Shown here in pieces: positions 1,036 through 63,345 of a stretch of DNA of 64,000 nucleotides (the first letter of the stretch is position 1; every line of letters starts with the position of its first letter). Made by a program: the position numbers and the translations under genes. The stretch is taken from contig NW_015971553.1 of the NCBI RefSeq assembly GCF_000182565.1, forward strand, positions 445,045 through 509,044. The letters run 5' to 3'. A model generated the notes under the pieces. The model was not told the DNA's origin, made no database searches, and saw only the letters and a program-made list of their open reading frames with translations. This stretch comes from Spizellomyces punctatus DAOM BR117. Its lineage: Eukaryota > Chytridiomycota > Chytridiomycetes > Spizellomycetales > Spizellomycetaceae.

Positions 1036-1515
1036 GTGCCCACTAGTTTGGAACCACATCTAACCAGTATAACCATAGCACTGACAGAAGAATTCTGTCA
1101 CAATCAACTTGCCGACCATGCTTCCCACGCGCTGAAATTCTATCTCCTTTCATCAGCGCCAGTTTTTCCCACAGTAAATCAAGAGACGATTGAAGCCATC
1201 CTCTATCTTCTCAACAAAGGTGAATCATGGCAACCAAAAACCGGTGCGAAGAAGGCATTACGCGAATCCTTGTTGCCATACATTCGTTGGTACTGCCACA
1301 TCGTTGGCTTCGTTCATCCAAATCTACAAAAAGAGCAGCAATCAGTCAATTACCTGACAGCAAGTATGATGGCGAATCTGAAGGTCAACATCCAGGAACA
1401 CTTCATGATGATGCTGCTCCGGTACATTAATCTGCGGCTCGACGTGAAGGGACAGAAGCAGCGACTGCCACTGAAAAGTGTAACAACGAGGACGTCTTCG
1501 AGAGATCGCGAGTAA
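1036..1515 (+). pseudogene. Probable Fanzor N-terminal region
   Basis: A 160-codon open frame without a good ATG start. Residues near its end, around VNIQEHFMMMLLRYINLRLD, resemble the N-terminal helical segment of Fanzor proteins, in which an Asn-rich stretch precedes a conserved helix. The frame stops before the Fanzor core, and 1516-2029 has no continuous matching frame. Either a long intron (for example donor near 1480, acceptor near 2054) or decay separates the two parts. The assignment rests on pattern memory and on position directly upstream of the recognisable core; it could be an unrelated ORF. Confidence 0.45.
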
Positions 1516-2029
1516 GCCCAAATCGGACGCAGGAAGCATGAATCGCGTGACCAACTCCACCGATTGGGTTACCGTGACCGAAAAAACCAGTTCAGAGAAT
1601 GGCAATTGGCGCATTAGATTTCAGCGTGCCTTGTACAACCTGTGGAGGCCCGAGCCAGTGTGGAAAAGGAAGAGATTGGTACCGCCACCAATAAATCAGT
1701 TGCGGTGCAGTGACACCCATTAGTTTAGTTTAGTTTAACAGTTTATCCAAGAATCTTGTATAAAAAGGATGTATTCAATAAAATAAGTCAGGGGCAGAAG
1801 CCGTAGTGACACTAAATCCCCATAACTCGCTTCTCAACTCCAATCTTAGGTTAACAGGAACCTAACAGAGTGCTTCAACGGCCTGATCACCTGTACTGAA
1901 GCCTCTAAATCCTGCTCGGTTCACAACTAACCGACTCTCCTTGCCTCTTGCCCCCAAGTCGCTACCGACGCCCAAAGAAAGGATTCGGAGACTATGATTC
2001 CTAGTACGGCCACCCACATAACCTGCTAG

Positions 2030-3457
2030 GAGACCCAAGTCGTCTTTACCGTAGTCTACCAACAAAAAATCCGCTACAAAAGCGATGCGCGGAAAGCTTT
2101 CTTTGCTCGTCTTCACTACTTGAAGTCGGTTTTCCTTTTCAAAACCATGCCAGAATCGCTGGATGACTTGACTGCTGAAGAGAGTGAACTTCTAGAAGAG
2201 ATTTGGTCCCTTAACATTCCCCTTTCTGACGACCAGCCACTCGCATATTCCGTTGCTGTAGACCCTCTCGTGTTCTTTCCTGCATACTGTCGGTTGTCAA
2301 GCCTATATGAAAAGCATGGATTTCGACAGTTCAGTGCGATACCTCTGTGCCGCTCGCTCATTCAAAGTCACGTGCGAATGGACACCATCATCCTGTACCA
2401 GCATATCCTTTGCATCACGCAGTGAGACACAGAAACTGTCGAAAAGGATGATCTGTGGTTGCGCGTCTGTAATCTGTGGAACAAGGCTTTTAGATCTCGC
2501 CACGGTATGCAGTTTGAAGGCTCGATCACGACGGATGGAACCTCAGTGTCTGTATACCTAAAGCACCCAGAAGCAGACAAGTATGGAAAGCGCAGAGCGA
2601 GAAAGTCAGCAAACATGGTGGCAGCGGAGGTTAAAGTGCAATACATGGAGAAAAACTTACCTGCTTGTCGAGCAGCAGAGAATGTCGTCGTTATCGACCC
2701 AAACAAGCACGATATTCTCTACTGCCAAGACAACAGTGGTATGACATTTCGCTACACCGCCAACCAGCGAGCTGTGGAGACTGGAAGCCGTCGATTTGCA
2801 ACAGAACGGCAGCAGATGAAGAAGGAAGCGGGAATGGACCTCATAGAATCACGTATCCCTAGTCACAAGACAATGAACCTCATGGACTTCATGCGCTATC
2901 TCCTTGTTCGGCGCGCTGATTGGGATCGTCAAAAGGACTTCTATTCGCATCCTGCCCACACGTGGTGGAAGTGGCATGCATTTATAAACCGTCAGAAGAG
3001 TGAATCGAACCTCATATCCAACTTACGCAACAAGTACGGTGAAAACTTTACCATTGTGATGGGAGATTGGAGCGATGCCGGTTGAACTGCAAGATTTCAG
3101 ACCTCATCAAAGACGAAAGGTTGGCGCACCCTCTTTAAGCGCAACAGGATCAACTGCTTCCTTCTCGACGAGTATAAAACCTCATCTGTCTGCCCTCACT
3201 GTTCATCCGATGACTTCCTTGAAAAAGGTTTCAAAACACGACCTCATTCAAGACCTTGGCGACGACGAGAAGGCAAGATTGAAAAAGTCCATGGATTGCT
3301 GGGTTGTACCAACCCTAACTGTCAGCAAGCCTGGACGATGCGCTACTGGAATCGAGATACGCTGAGCACCTGCAATATGCTGATAATCGTGCAATCAATG
3401 TTGGATGGACACAGTAGACCAGAAGTGTTCAGCAGGAGTGTTCCAGCCGTAGCTTAG
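2030..3457 (+). pseudogene. Fanzor (TnpB-like) nuclease core, two in-frame TGA codons
   Basis: One reading frame runs from 2030 to a TAG at 3455-3457 and is broken only by TGA at 2423-2425 and 3083-3085. Translation shows Fanzor landmarks in order: GFRQFSAIPLCRS and MDT, then ITTDG, then RuvC-I VVVIDPNKHDILY (Asp at 2696), MGDWS, RuvC-II LLDEYKTS (Glu at 3170), a zinc finger CPHC...CTNPNC, and RuvC-III NRDTLSTCNML (Asp at 3356). All three catalytic acids and all four zinc Cys are present. Fanzors are RNA-guided DNA nucleases related to TnpB and Cas12. Each TGA is one transition away from CGA (Arg), as expected from deamination of methylated CpG. A GT-AG intron at 2422-2493 (72 nt, frame kept) could hide the first stop, but that segment reads like Fanzor coding sequence. 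Probably a recently inactivated copy. Confidence 0.85.
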
Positions 3458-3543
3458 ATTGGTTAGATTAGGTTTTCCGAGCCGGTTGTCGCCGGTTCAA
3501 TCCCTGGTGCGGGTGCTAGTGCCAATACCCACCGGCTCCGCAC
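3449..3543 (+). ncRNA. Candidate Fanzor omega RNA scaffold / element right end
   Basis: This block begins at the Fanzor stop codon (GTAGCTTAG) and contains TTTTCCGAGCCGGTTGTCGC followed by CGGTTC, which can fold as GAGCCGG/CCGGTTC around a TTGTCG loop. It then runs TCCCTGGTG...GCTAGTGCC to the terminal repeat. The same block is found at 10154-10234 (A) and 60957-61010 (C), and partly in B at 53279-53321. In TnpB and Fanzor systems the guide RNA scaffold overlaps the ORF 3' end and runs to the element's right end; placement here is the same. Transcription and function are inferred. Confidence 0.55.
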
Positions 3544-3589
3544 TAGCTTGTCCTTGCAACTTAAGTCATCCGCCACTTTTCAACAAACG

Positions 3590-9354: not shown

Positions 9355-9498
9355 GTTTGCTTTTGTTTTGCGCTTGCTATTAGGAGTGCCTCTGTAAAGA
9401 AGGGAGAGCAGAAGGAAGGCCTTTTATAAAGCGGAAGCTACAAGATGCCAGTACACAGCAAGACGCAGCATGACTCATCGACCGTGTCATAATCGGAC

Positions 9499-10234
9499 GT
9501 GATTGAAAATGGCACTAGGACCCATTATTATCCGGATTAATCCGGTTAGTCATATCGCATAATCAGCACCCCCATCTATCACTCAAAGCGGTGTGGCATG
9601 GATGCTAATGTTCTCCAAACTGCGGTGAGGCATGCTAATGTAACGTTTTGTCTTTTTCAGCTGGACCCCATTTTGCCACAATCGAGGTCTATAAAAGGGG
9701 GGCCTTTTGCTGTCTCTCCCCTTCCTCACCAGTTCCTCGACTCTCAAACCATCTGCGCAACTCTCATCGCGACTCGGTCCAATCATGAGAATGCAGATGT
9801 GGTGGTGCCGAGGACCTCGACCGCCCGACAGCAATCGTGATCAGAACCAGCGGCAACCAATTGGATCCGATAACAAAACCTACTATTATGCTGCTACACT
9901 TGTTGAGCTTGGTTGGTAAGTACCAATGGCATTTCTTTTCATTCTGTCATTCATCTCGCTGACATGCAGTTTTTAGTCTCCAAGCCTTGTCACTGAAGAT
10001 CCTCCAGCTTGCGAGTCTCCCCAATGTTGCGAAGACTCTGGCTTCAATGCCATCAAGAGTTCTGGATCAAGGCCTAGTAGGGACCGTGTGTGGTGGTGGG
10101 CAATTATCCGGTTACAACCAACCGTTACGTATTGCGTGTATAATTGTCTAGTAGTAGCTTAGCTTTTCCGAACCGGTTGTCGCCGGTTTATTCCCTGGTG
10201 TAGTAGCTAGTGCCATTTTCTGTCACCTCTACAC
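9499..10234 (+). mobile_element. Non-autonomous element A with Fanzor-like right end
   Basis: About 730 bp. The left end is GTGATTGAAAATGGCACTAG (9499); the right end (10207-10234) is its imperfect inverted copy and is followed by TA. Inside, in order: TATA box at 9690-9697, ATG at 9785, a short frame starting MRMQMWWCRGPRPPD, a canonical 54-nt intron (GTAAGT at 9916 to ATGCAG at 9969) with a GCTGAC branch site, then the hairpin block CCGAACCGGTTGTCGCCGGT at about 10169-10188. Element B carries the same architecture in inverse orientation at 53279-53882. No transposase or nuclease is encoded, so mobilisation must be in trans. The outer 8 bases of the left repeat look lost. Confidence 0.8.
9690..9697 (+). 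promoter_or_regulatory. TATA box inside element A
   Basis: TATAAAAG followed by GGGGGCC lies 95 bp upstream of the conserved ATG in element A. The same TATAAAAGGGGGGCC word is kept in element B, so it is part of the element and not of a neighbouring gene. Confidence 0.65.
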
Positions 10235-11129
10235 TAATCGACAAAAGATGTTTAACAAAATATGAATATCGTGCAAAGAAACGTGCTCGCAAAAGTGTTT
10301 TAGCAGGTTGGTCTGGACAAGAAGTTTTGTTGGATTCGTTTGGATTGGCATTGCAGCTGGCTGAGTTCCGGCAGCAAAGCACGAGGTGGATTTGTCTTTG
10401 ACGTTGTATCCAACAGAGCAATGAAACCACAAGGCCGTGACAGGCGAGTTGGAAGCTCATCTTGCGCTTGCCATCCTCTTCTCGATGTGGGCTTGCAAGG
10501 ATGTGAACACTTAGCGTCTTTTCGTAACTTGTCTTTGCACTCTAAACTATCGGATTCCTCCTATTCAACAGCTTATCAATAGCTGAAACACAGAGTCTTC
10601 AAATGCAGTAAGGCATGTCTGGTTAAAGATTATTATAGCGTACAAAATGGAAGGATGCTCTGGGGTGACCTAAAACATCACTGAATAACACCCATTTGCA
10701 TGTAAATGTTGCGCAAGATGCATGAGTGCTTTCGATAAAGCGTCACCAGGGAACATCATACTGGTGCTGAAAAGCGGTGCTCAACATGCTGTTTGCAAGT
10801 TTCAAGTGAAATCTACGGCATGGTTAACGCCTCAAAACCTGTGATCTACGGATGTTGGTATGTACATCAACCAGAAAGTCTTTCGGAGAAAGTTCATGCC
10901 AACCGTTCCAGCCCCGTACCGATCTATGGATTCCTTGAGTATTCAAACCAAATGTCTGCAATATCGGTTGGACAAACGTTGGAAAACACATCCCAAACCA
11001 GAAGTGTCAAACGATGGGATGTATCACGTGATGGGCATTACGATGTAACACTTTCCCCAGGCTAGACAAAAACTCCAGCCCATGTTGGTTCGTCACTCGT
11101 TTGGCGACCGTCCATTCACAAATTGCAAC
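10235..11129. other. Intergenic region, no supported gene
   Basis: Several short frames exist, for example one at 10793-11065 ending near VKRWDVSRDGHYDVTL, but I recognise no family and find no joining exons. They may be gene relics. The 3' part should include the promoter of the acyltransferase at 11130. Confidence 0.5.
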
Positions 11130-52512: not shown

Positions 52513-53276
52513 AGTGTCAGCAAGTAGCGCAGTCAAAGGTGGTGTCGTAGCAAAAGTCTGTGAGGTCCGGGAGTGTACGGTTGAAGGGGGTGATGACTGG
52601 CAAAATGCACCGTAGGCGTCGAAAAAACTCGGCGTTCGTTCCTATTTGACCCTGTCCACACAGTTTTATTTTTGCCTGCACGACAGGCCCGTCGCCGATG
52701 AACGCTGTGAAAAAAAAAAAAAAGCGGATGCGTGGATGCGATCAGCAATGGATCGTTTCCTATGGGCGACCTTTTCAAATAATGTTGAAGTTTGTCCGGC
52801 ACGAGGGGATAGTTTTTACAGTCACATTAAAAGAGTCGCTGTGCCGCTAGATAAGAAAGCTGTGCCGATCATTAGTCTGTGCCACTCAATGTCACGGGCT
52901 TCAGACATCTTCTTAGAAAGCTGCCACGTAAAGACCTCCAGCAACTGAACTTCCTGTCCAGCTCACCTCGAGGCACAGGGGAAATTAGCAATGAAAAAAC
53001 AAGGAACTCTGAACAATCCCGACGACCGAAAACTACATTGGTATAAAGGCCAGCCCCCACAACCACAATCGTTCAGCTATTGGTGTGAATAGCGACACCT
53101 GCCGCTGTCACAAGAACGAGTAAAACATGTTTACCATCCACTTTTGCGCAGAATGAAGAGCGTCGTCAGACATTTTTACCAACCCAACGCGCAGAGTTCT
53201 TTCCCATCACATTCTGACCAAGATGCTCATTGAAAAAGACCATTCCAGGCGCGACTCGACTCAGACTTGTGTAGAA
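52513..53276. other. Intergenic region
   Basis: No gene supported. Includes the XPO1 promoter and an A15 run near 52708-52722. Short frames on both strands lack recognisable features. Confidence 0.6.
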
Positions 53277-53278
53277 TA

Positions 53279-53882
53279 GTGTAGAGATGACAGAAACTGG
53301 GACTAGCTACTACACCAGGGAATAAACTCTTGATGGCATTGAAGCCAGACTCTTGCATCCAGGAGCGAATCGACTGGGCAGCGTCACAAGCTGGGGGATT
53401 TTCAGTGACAAGGCTTGGAGACTAAAGCTGCATGTCAGACAGAATGGCAGAATGAAAAGAGATGATGCCATTGGTACATACCAACCAAGCTCAACATATG
53501 TGGCAGTATAATAGCAGCTTTGTTGGTTCCGAGTGGTTGCTGCTGGTTCCAGTTGGTTGTAGTCAGGTGGGCGAGGTCCTCGACACCACCACATCTGCAT
53601 TCTCATGATTGGACCGAGTTGCGATGAGACTTGCCATGTGGGTCGTGATGAGAGTTGCGCAGATGGTTTGAGAGTCGAGGAACTGGTGAGGAAGGGGAGA
53701 GACAGCAAAAGGCCCCCCTTTTATAGACCTTTGGCATGTGCCTCACCGCAGTTTAAAAAAAAAACATTACATGCATGCCACACCAATCTGAGTGATAGAG
53801 GGGGTGCTGATTATGTGATATGACCAACAGGATTAATCCGGATAATAATGGGTCCTAGTGCCATTTTCAATCACCTCCACAC
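53279..53882 (-). mobile_element. Non-autonomous element B, TA-flanked, Fanzor-like end
   Basis: 604 bp with 28-bp terminal inverted repeats (53279-53306 and 53855-53882, 22 of 28 identical), flanked on both sides by TA (53277-53278, 53883-53884), as in Mariner/Tc1-type insertions. Read on the minus strand it repeats element A: TATA box (53725-53719), ATG at 53606, 54-nt intron (53481-53428, GTATGT...ATGCAG), and the end CCCTGGTGTAGTAGCTAG. An extra 24 bp relative to A keeps the frame. The hairpin block has been lost between TCAAGAGTT and TATTCCCTGG. The spliced frame is longer than in A, reaching KSLASMPSRVYSLV. Confidence 0.82.
53719..53725 (-). promoter_or_regulatory. TATA box inside element B
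   Basis: TATAAAAGGGGGGCC on the minus strand, identical to the word in element A and at the corresponding place upstream of the shared ATG. Conservation between the two copies suggests it is used. Confidence 0.6.
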
Positions 53883-53884
53883 TA

Positions 53885-60194: not shown

Positions 60195-60496
60195 GAGTCT
60201 TGATGCTCTGAGACAGGGGTCATACATACAGTGATTATACAGTGGTAGACTTCATCTAGCTGAACAAACCATATTCCCATAGGGAACCCTACTTGATATG
60301 TGCTGGTACTGAACCACGTCAGGAACACACACACACACAAGAGTATGACAGCCACGTCCACCCAACTGCAATAGCAATAGGAATTGGTTGCTACCACAAA
60401 GATTTGCTATTAAAGGTACTATTATGCTACTGCATGAACGGTGCTTGATTGGTATGTACTGATGGCATTGTTGGGTAAAGTCAAGTTATTGGTGTT
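60195..60496. other. Intergenic region
   Basis: No gene supported. Contains ACACACACACACAA near 60321-60334. Confidence 0.5.
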
Positions 60497-60745
60497 TGCC
60501 TGCAACTAGACTTGTTGCACTTGAGAGGTCGATAGCTCTGTTAGAAGCTATGCTGGAGAATGGCTCTGGGCACCTTGTGTGTCAAGAGAGATCACAGGGT
60601 GGCAACCTGACTTTGACCTCTAATTTTGGGCACATAAGACAACTAACTAAGAATAAGTTTTGCAAGCTTGTAGCGCGGATTCAGGGCTTTCTAGAACCGT
60701 TTTGGTCTTGTTGATAAGTTAACAACTCGCCTAGTTATGCAAGTT
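60497..60745 (+). repeat. Dispersed repeat D, copy 1 (inverted partner at 63045-63345)
   Basis: Shares CCTGCAACTAGACTTG, GATAGCTCTGTTAGAAGCTA, CTAACTAAGAA and CAGGGCTTTCTAGAACCG with the reverse complement of 63045-63345. The two copies point towards each other around the membrane-protein gene at 61564. The word ATAGCTCTGTTAGAAGCTAT can form a small hairpin. Copies differ by indels and substitutions, so the insertion is old. Confidence 0.8.
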
Positions 60746-60794
60746 ACCGTCCCATGACAATCTCGATGAAATTAATGAATTTCAACAGGCATCA

Positions 60795-61034
60795 TATCTG
60801 TTCCATTCTGTCATCTGGCTGACATGCAGTTTTAGTCTCCAAGCCTTTGTTCACAAAAATCCTCCGGCTTGCGAGTCTCACTGATGTTAACTCTCTTGCG
60901 AAGACTCTGGCTTCAATCCCATCAAGAGTTCCGGATCAACGTCCAAGCTTAAATTAGCTTTTCCGAACCGGTTGTCGCCGGTTTCTTCCCTGGTGTAGTT
61001 AGCTAGTGTCAGTTTCTTCTATGTAAGCAGTGTA
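60795..61034 (+). mobile_element. 5'-truncated element C (right half of the A/B family)
   Basis: Begins within the family intron (CATTCTGTCATCTGGCTGAC then ATGCAG), continues with TTTTAGTCTCCAAGCC and CTGGCTTCAATCCCATCAAG, and keeps the hairpin block TTTTCCGAACCGGTTGTCGC at 60959. It ends with CCCTGGTGTAGTTAGCTAGTG and a decayed terminal repeat. The promoter and ATG are missing. Confidence 0.75.
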
Positions 61035-62493: not shown

Positions 62494-63044
62494 CGGATGA
62501 CCCGACCAATATCCGCAGGAACACACACAAGTCCCCGGCTTGAGGTCCCCGATGCTCAAGTAGATATTATTGAGCTGGAAGAATTAGAATTCCCTTTTGG
62601 AGATGAGATGCGCTTACAATTATGTTTGCAGCGCATCATGCATTAATCAGATTGATGTTCAGTGTTAATTTTGTCAAGTACTTGCATTGTCGAGTGGTGA
62701 TAGAAAAGCAGGCAGGGCCTTGTGGGAACCAATGGCATTAAAGAGGGGTTTACTTTTGTTGGACCCATTCCAAAGTATGATTTCAATTATTTACTCTCAG
62801 AAATGACACGAATGTCCGCCGGAGGCCCGTGAGGGGTGTGTGGAGGCCCACCAAACGTCTCATGGAACTTTTTGGCAGCTCCAGATGCGCTCAATCACCC
62901 TGCAAGCAAACAACATCTGTCATCTCCCGCGGGTGCCCAAACGGTGGGTTGGGGTACGGATGCCCATGTAATCCCCATGTGTGGGTGGGTACCCATGACG
63001 CGCCCGCGTGGGTGCCTGCTTTCATCGGAAATGACAAAGGACGG
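62494..63044. other. Intergenic region
   Basis: No supported gene. G/C-richer stretch near 62815-63020 with several short overlapping frames and no recognisable product. Confidence 0.5.
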
Positions 63045-63345
63045 AAACTTGAATAACTCTGCGAGTTATTAAGTTATCGACAAGATCAAAACGGTTCTAG
63101 AAAGCCCTGAATCGTGGCTACAAGAATGTTAAAACGGTTTCTTAGTTAATTGTCTTACACGCTCAAAAGTAGAGGTTGAAAGTCAGGAAGTCATCATGTG
63201 ATCTGTCCTATACTTAGCACCCGCATTTTTCTACAATACAACTATTTCACTATTCTGTTGACACTTAGAGATGTTCCGCAGTGACAGCATAGCTTCTAAC
63301 AGAGCTATCCACCTCTCAGGTGCACCAAGTCTAGTTGCAGGAGCA
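63045..63345 (-). repeat. Dispersed repeat D, copy 2
   Basis: Reverse complement matches 60497-60745, including CAAAACGGTTCTAGAAAGCC near 63087 and TAGCTTCTAACAGAGCTATC near 63291. It is about 50 bp longer than copy 1 owing to internal insertions. Confidence 0.8.

Follow-up and report, generated by a model that had tools for sequence, protein, structure and literature searches.

Ghost satellites of the Fanzor element SPu-1 in Spizellomyces punctatus: an oriented CATA motif and candidate scars of guided empty-site cutting

Guide RNA loci that lack a nuclease gene are known from prokaryotes as the trans-acting omega-RNAs of IscB, whose scaffold is unrelated to that of Fanzor. In Spizellomyces punctatus, 42 Fanzor loci and 134 ghost Spu-1 loci have been described, with a 75-nt scaffold, a guide of 14-15 nt, a CATA TAM and a conserved CA ahead of the left repeat (Saito 2023, PMC10432273). 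Omega-RNA expression has been shown at four Fz loci, SpuFz1 is active in human cells with the omega-RNAs of four ghost loci, and its cuts fall past the TAM, at 16-17 nt on the non-target strand and at 20-21 nt on the target strand (PMC10432273). That paper found no transposase within the Spu-1 repeats, describes the biological role of Fanzor as not known and raises the possibility of help to other transposons in trans. Bao & Jurka 2013 (PMC3627910) had described SPu-1 with putative TA duplications.

Two further systems are close to the elements analyzed here. TnpB cut-and-copy in the IS200/IS605 elements shares with them the right-end guide RNA, the left TAM, the empty site as a target and restoration by copying from the sister (PMC10432273); here, however, the host is a eukaryote, a mariner-type TA duplication takes the place of the single-strand transposase TnpA, and footprints alone are seen. 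The Chlamydomonas Fanzor elements CRe-1/2/3 are likewise left-truncated with intact 3' ends, and their 5'-truncated copies mostly carry duplications of 7-19 bp directly after TTTT, but they have Helitron-type ends, one-ended rolling-circle transposition has been proposed for them and some of their duplications are far longer, 44-443 bp (PMC3627910); the latter are beyond what the cut distance explains. In related Helitrons that lack Fanzor such duplications are very rare (1 of 200 in one family), and the authors left open whether Fanzor causes them (PMC3627910).

We analyzed a window of 64,000 nucleotides, the whole stretch of S. punctatus DNA under study, in which a block at the 3' end of a Fanzor gene had been noticed to recur in smaller elements. 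This block belongs to SPu-1, the S. punctatus element carrying the Fanzor SpuFz1, and forms its right end. Its 16-nt core CCGGTTGTCGCCGGTT was found in the window exactly (three matches, no mismatches), at 3482, 10173 and 60968 on the plus strand; with up to 3 mismatches allowed, 100 shuffled versions averaged 0.41 matches and two shuffles reached three. The remaining parts also recur as the original prediction had it, in place or a few bases off, with the end of element B at 53277-53327 on the minus strand. Both limits of the block had to be moved. It had been taken to start exactly at the Fanzor stop codon, but GTAGCTTAG at 3449 reads GTA GCT TAG and the stop codon is at 3455-3457; the proposed end at 3543 lies 2 nt inside the scaffold, which runs from about 3472 to 3545 and is followed by the guide from 3546. 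Absent from that account was a second stem, which is the right terminal repeat itself (GTGCGG/CCGCAC in the window SPu-1 and GTGTAG/CTACAC in element A).

The SPu-1 copy in the window (1103..3545, plus strand) is a broken remnant of the described SPu-1/SpuFz1 element (Fanzor1), which the family in this genome matches in the protein (PDB 8gkh), the terminal repeats, the TA duplication, the CA at the left and the right-end omega-RNA. BLASTN to the full-length copies L032 and L038 aligns 1103-1478 and 2078-3545. The copy is 5'-truncated without a left end, carries an insertion at ~1479-2077 and has a broken Fanzor frame, the longest open frame being 192 aa. Its omega-RNA scaffold (3472..3545, plus strand; placed by SPu-1 copies and the numbering of PMC10432273) comprises stems 1 and 2 and ends in the TA of the target duplication, and its predicted fold (z -3.90) was equaled by none of 200 shuffles. 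The predicted guide is the flanking DNA at 3546..3560 (plus strand), the first 15 nt past ...GCACTA, with the length taken from PMC10432273. Homology between this copy and the ghost L058 is confined to 3463-3524. The insertion of ~600 bp looks like a separate mobile repeat, since its end recurs in near-identical form in L033 and L042, abutting Fanzor homology at other positions. A reading of L111 as a Fanzor-ghost chimera was rejected, as its upstream part matches this insertion by eye.

The smaller elements A, B and C had been proposed to be satellites without a nuclease that use Fanzor in trans and bring their own guides. Elements of this description are the published ghost Spu-1 (PMC10432273), and the guides of the copies that we collected are all distinct (114 of 114). 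The elements themselves are therefore already published, and there is nothing new here on the SPu-1 family; what is added on the ghosts is their families (G1, G2/G3 with a divergent right end, and mixed), the orientation of CATA, the covariation and the scars. A and B share with the ghosts the lack of a Fanzor gene, ghost-type repeats, CATA at the left and an omega-RNA-like right end (damaged in B). As carriers of an omega-RNA, A stands, with its fold kept, and B and C do not, stem 1 being lost from B and C being degenerate.

Element A (9490..10236, plus strand) is a G1 ghost satellite, identified by ghost homology, with an altered left end and an intact right end; it is 80% identical to the ghost L058 across 9495-10236. 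At its left junction stands CATA (9488..9491, plus strand), a TAM whose TA doubles as the target duplication. The next four bases, ATCG (9492..9495, plus strand), are the first 4 nt of the element's own guide, replace the outermost left repeat and form a candidate repair scar. The scaffold (10164..10236, plus strand) has two stems as in SPu-1 (fold z -4.23), and the predicted guide is the flank past the right end (10237..10251, plus strand). Element B (53277..53884, minus strand) is a G1 ghost with CATA at its left end. Since its omega-RNA stem 1 is deleted, the remnant scaffold folds poorly (z 0.12, with 105 of 200 shuffles as good), and the flank in guide position (53262..53276, minus strand) is probably out of use, as stem 1 is missing. 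The ghost L140 (contig C3, ~178,865) has likewise lost stem 1 to a deletion, with its ends kept. Element C (60412..61017, plus strand) is a degenerate, interrupted ghost with homology at 60412-60472, 60801-60939 and 60946-61017; it keeps stem 1 and has lost the right terminus, no CACTA end being found and the final ~15 nt being unrecognizable. A short repeat is common to element C (60635-60794), a place 2 kb downstream (63017-63157) and two places in L069.

In the genome searched (24.0 Mb, 29 contigs), the 21-mer TTCCGAACCGGTTGTCGCCGG from the core of stem 1 has 168 matches at up to 3 mismatches, and its reversed control has one. Copy counts rest on the first 100 of these 168 matches and on copies found by BLAST; a place fetched twice was counted once. 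Four of 83 core matches had no CACTA end and were removed before counting (L049, which is element C, L073, L087 and L119). In the ghost L073, a second right-end piece, inverted and head to head, comes after the omega-RNA stem 1. The sets of distinct copies whose right end could be read comprised 105, then 110 (the set of the CATA count) and finally 114; the minus-strand Fanzor loci L019, L020, L021 and L025 are outside the first two sets and inside the last. The copies end in ...CACTA, with unrelated flanks beyond. Most G1 ghost loci have both terminal repeats, typically ~740 bp apart, and no Fanzor gene. Among the 15 Fanzor loci examined, frames of 621-634 aa were found in five (L032, L034, L038, L040 and L045); the intact 634-aa Fanzor of L038 matches SpuFz1 of PDB 8gkh over residues 2-634 (E=0), which places the genome in S. 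punctatus or a near relative. CATA followed by the SPu-1 repeat stands at the start of L032, L036, L038, L040, L045, L134, L135, L137 and L138, and in L136 the left repeat is present without the CA. The block might have turned out never to lie next to Fanzor genes, which would have spoken against the original prediction; it was found as an SPu-1-type right end in 27 of 105 copies, several of them with a full Fanzor frame. Two right ends of the G3 type (L085 and L089) sit on copies with Fanzor homology upstream.

An intact copy reads CA-TA-[GTG...CAC]-TA-guide, TA being the last bases of the scaffold. For every right-end family, the first scaffold listed is predicted to form stems 1 and 2. Stem 2 is GTGCGG/CCGCAC in SPu-1, GTGTAG/CTACAC in the G1 ghosts and GTGTAT or GTGTGG opposite ATACAC in the G2/G3 group. 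Compensatory changes, whose absence would likewise have counted against the prediction, are present in both stems: between families in stem 2 (TA to CG, AT to GC and GC to TA) and, by eye, within ghost families in stem 1 (GC to AT in L129, L139 and L142; CG to TA together with AT to GC in L141 and L143). Each of the changes between families may be one old event. The conservation of stem 1 is biased upward, because its core or BLAST served to select the copies. Where left and right repeats differ, in G1 and G2, the 5' arm of stem 2 follows the right one, which speaks for an RNA hairpin beyond mere repeat symmetry. Counted as a possible sign of RNA-level selection, wobble (G.U) and A.C number 6 and 4 in G1, and 20 and 0 in stem 1 of the Fanzor copies, the latter mostly two changes common to many copies. 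Five ghosts (L056, L068, L077, L082 and L100) combine a G1-like scaffold with the right terminus of another family (...TAATACACTA), which suggests exchange of ends between families. Mixed ends were noted in four copies, and of the three shown one (L068) is without a normal stem 2.

Some copies with a missing or altered left repeat have, at the left junction, CATA and the first k nt of their own guide, followed directly by the element interior. Seven of 114 copies have k of at least 7 after CATA (L125 with 13, L041, L090 and L097 with 11, L081 and L142 with 8, and L124 with 7), the expectation from 200 permutations of guides among copies being 0.000; in the earlier set of 105 copies six were observed, against 0.000 expected from 100 permutations. 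L041 is a Fanzor copy and the six others are not. In the first batch of copies the junctions lie at or near the edge of element homology. Five extra copies (L139-L143) were picked by right-end type after the pattern had been noticed, with their left sides unseen: a guide prefix of k=8 follows CATA in L142 and, within CGATA repeats, GATA in L139; the left repeat is retained in L140 and L141, and L143 is scar-free.

With no TAM required, the 114 copies contain eight guide-prefix repeats of at least 8 nt, six after CATA, one after GATA and one after TTAC (L021), compared with 2.55 expected after any 4-mer in the set of 110; this excess is modest, and the weight rests on the CATA before six of them. 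Shorter matches add less. For k of at least 4, 11 were observed and 3.7 expected, and if one TAM mismatch is tolerated, a clear excess begins only at k of at least 6 (9 against 3.2). Short matches are not significant alone, so that position is all that speaks for element A (k=4) and L113 (k=5); L098 (k=7 after TATA) has a junction of the same type and, like these two, is unconvincing alone. The k=7 match of L039, after the one-mismatch TAM CAAA, falls inside the Fanzor gene. As scars, L108 (k=6) and L102 (k=4) were rejected, their matches being internal to the element and due to chance. Among copies with an aberrant left side, no scar was seen in L083, L088, L103, L028 and L035, and L034 has k=2 only.

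We consider the following explanation probable, though well short of certain. The family would consist of inverted-repeat transposons that insert at TA, with a right end encoding the two-stem scaffold and the host flank serving as guide; some copies carry Fanzor, and ghosts without a nuclease would use it in trans, movement being probably due to a Tc1/mariner-type transposase supplied in trans. When an element leaves, CATA and the guide sequence would be restored, forming the exact target of the RNA from the copy remaining on the sister or homologue. Fanzor may then cut the vacated site, and repair off the filled chromatid would reinstate the element. The filled site would be spared because its right junction reads CACTA and not CATA before the guide. 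Given cuts at 16-17 and 20-21 nt, a broken empty site would retain, on the left, CATA and up to that much of the guide. If repair from the right side aborts, a left-truncated copy would be joined to this left broken end, leaving CATA and a few guide nucleotides. The values of k, 4-13, fall within the limit that such cutting would set, the longest, 13, being under the published cut sites (16-17/20-21 nt; PMC10432273). Guide nucleotides on the left would be an unexpected product of excision by a transposase alone. We infer the cutting and copying in native cells, the transposase acting in trans and the repair route from these footprints.

Alternatively, the junctions could be true target duplications, left by one-ended insertion of a Helitron-like or target-primed kind and not by Fanzor cutting. 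Left truncation with a duplication of variable length fits this as well, and it is the process that Bao & Jurka 2013 proposed for Chlamydomonas (PMC3627910). However, copies with an intact left repeat show TA only, in the manner of mariner elements, and the seven strong cases start right after the TAM and are shorter than the Fanzor cut distance, so we regard one-ended insertion as unlikely. Whether the whole of a wider picture holds, in which native Fanzor would perform RNA-guided homing, satellites would ride with their own guides, the junctions of CATA and guide prefix would be its fossils, the same scar would occur in Chlamydomonas and a mariner-type transposase would be the mover, is in our judgment evenly balanced. 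No report linking Fanzor cutting to guide-prefix repeats was found in the literature searched, PMC11423790 and PMC10711439 among it, which largely excluded subscription papers and preprints; three points seem to go further than the literature found, namely the argument from CATA orientation, the scars and the candidate transposase.

A search of the genome with DDE_3 gave two matches, one of them an intact gene, the only one found (402 aa in the chosen frame, DDE_3 E=1.6e-12). This Tc1/mariner transposase lies in a 3.03-kb element on contig C3 (~531,540-534,565; L130 and L132), whose ends are an inverted repeat of ~35 bp. Over 30 positions each end is identical to the ghost left repeat in 22, which none of 300 shuffles reached (best of four repeat probes, 9-13 mismatches). 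Two ghosts, L119 and L062, flank the element, each within 1 kb and in mutually opposite orientation. The element is a single copy without a clean TA duplication or CATA, and its repeat has no other occurrence in the genome at up to 3 mismatches. A search with the intact protein found itself and three fragments; there were no ghost-like repeats in the fragment region L133, and viral contigs gave no relative. An organism name is attached to three of 30 homologues, and these are from the chytrids Phlyctochytrium, Lobulomyces and Clydaea. A search with DDE_1 had no match, and its controls were equally silent. The DDE_3 element is a candidate mover of the ghosts, to be taken as a lead.

CATA has an orientation. 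CA precedes the left repeat in 67 of the 75 copies in which that repeat was found, 65 of them reading CATA; the other 35 of the 110 copies, with a left repeat unrecognizable or out of reach, are outside this count. A separate anchored count of ghosts alone gave CA in 56 of 64, with 19 of 83 unanchored. The right ends counted with these left repeats, which had been required to read CACTA, finish in TA. The mirror-image TG after the right end occurs in nine of 114 copies. The asymmetry between CA at the left and TG at the right is better accounted for by a TAM than by a transposase with a symmetric preference: a transposase that needs only TA gives no ground for it, and a nuclease requiring CATA before the guide does. 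This bears on the reading of the elements as ordinary Tc1/mariner MITEs, with CATA a target preference of the transposase and the omega-RNA-like end a passive relic of SPu-1. Such a reading accommodates the TA duplications and inverted repeats, which are classic features of mariner elements, the presence in the genome of a mariner transposase whose repeats are related, and the broken scaffolds of some copies, B and C among them. Symmetric TA targeting would nevertheless predict TG at the right as often as CA at the left, contrary to the 67 of 75 and nine of 114 found, and the compensatory pairs and the junctions of CATA and guide are left without explanation; we think this reading quite improbable. 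That ghost RNAs chiefly direct Fanzor to other genomic targets, for regulation or to help other transposons, and not to their own empty sites, is very doubtful, even with diverse guides and the help to transposons in trans raised by Saito 2023 (PMC10432273), since each guide is by its origin the flank of the element itself, CATA being in place, and a comparison of 97 right flanks showed one short match and otherwise no common repeat.

Under the explanation by guided cutting of empty sites, the scars and the CATA asymmetry would document, in a form that can be read from the genome, how a eukaryote repairs RNA-guided breaks, and ghosts kept for a working guide RNA would, at the level of that RNA, parasitize an element that is itself a parasite. 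Scars, orientation and candidate transposase together make native Fanzor homing testable by strain resequencing, and the junction test can be applied to other genomes with Fanzor or TnpB.

The pair GTAGCTTAG...GGTTCAATCC is similar to A and B boxes. A Pol III or tRNA origin was rejected, as ARAGORN found no tRNA in the window, Rfam gave nothing at the gathering threshold and copy A deviates from the B box.

The ghost bodies (~9690-10162 in A, and G1 loci) contain a TATAAAAG box and an exon-like frame that starts at an ATG and stays open in 56 of the 68 copies aligned. No AG was found at the assumed acceptor boundary in the 68 copies and the exon frames join uncleanly, so that the case for a small spliced gene is suggestive only. 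A donor-like GT follows the exon-like stretch in 67 of 68 copies; the next stretch is more variable than the sequence on either side, and another open frame ends at the start of the omega-RNA.
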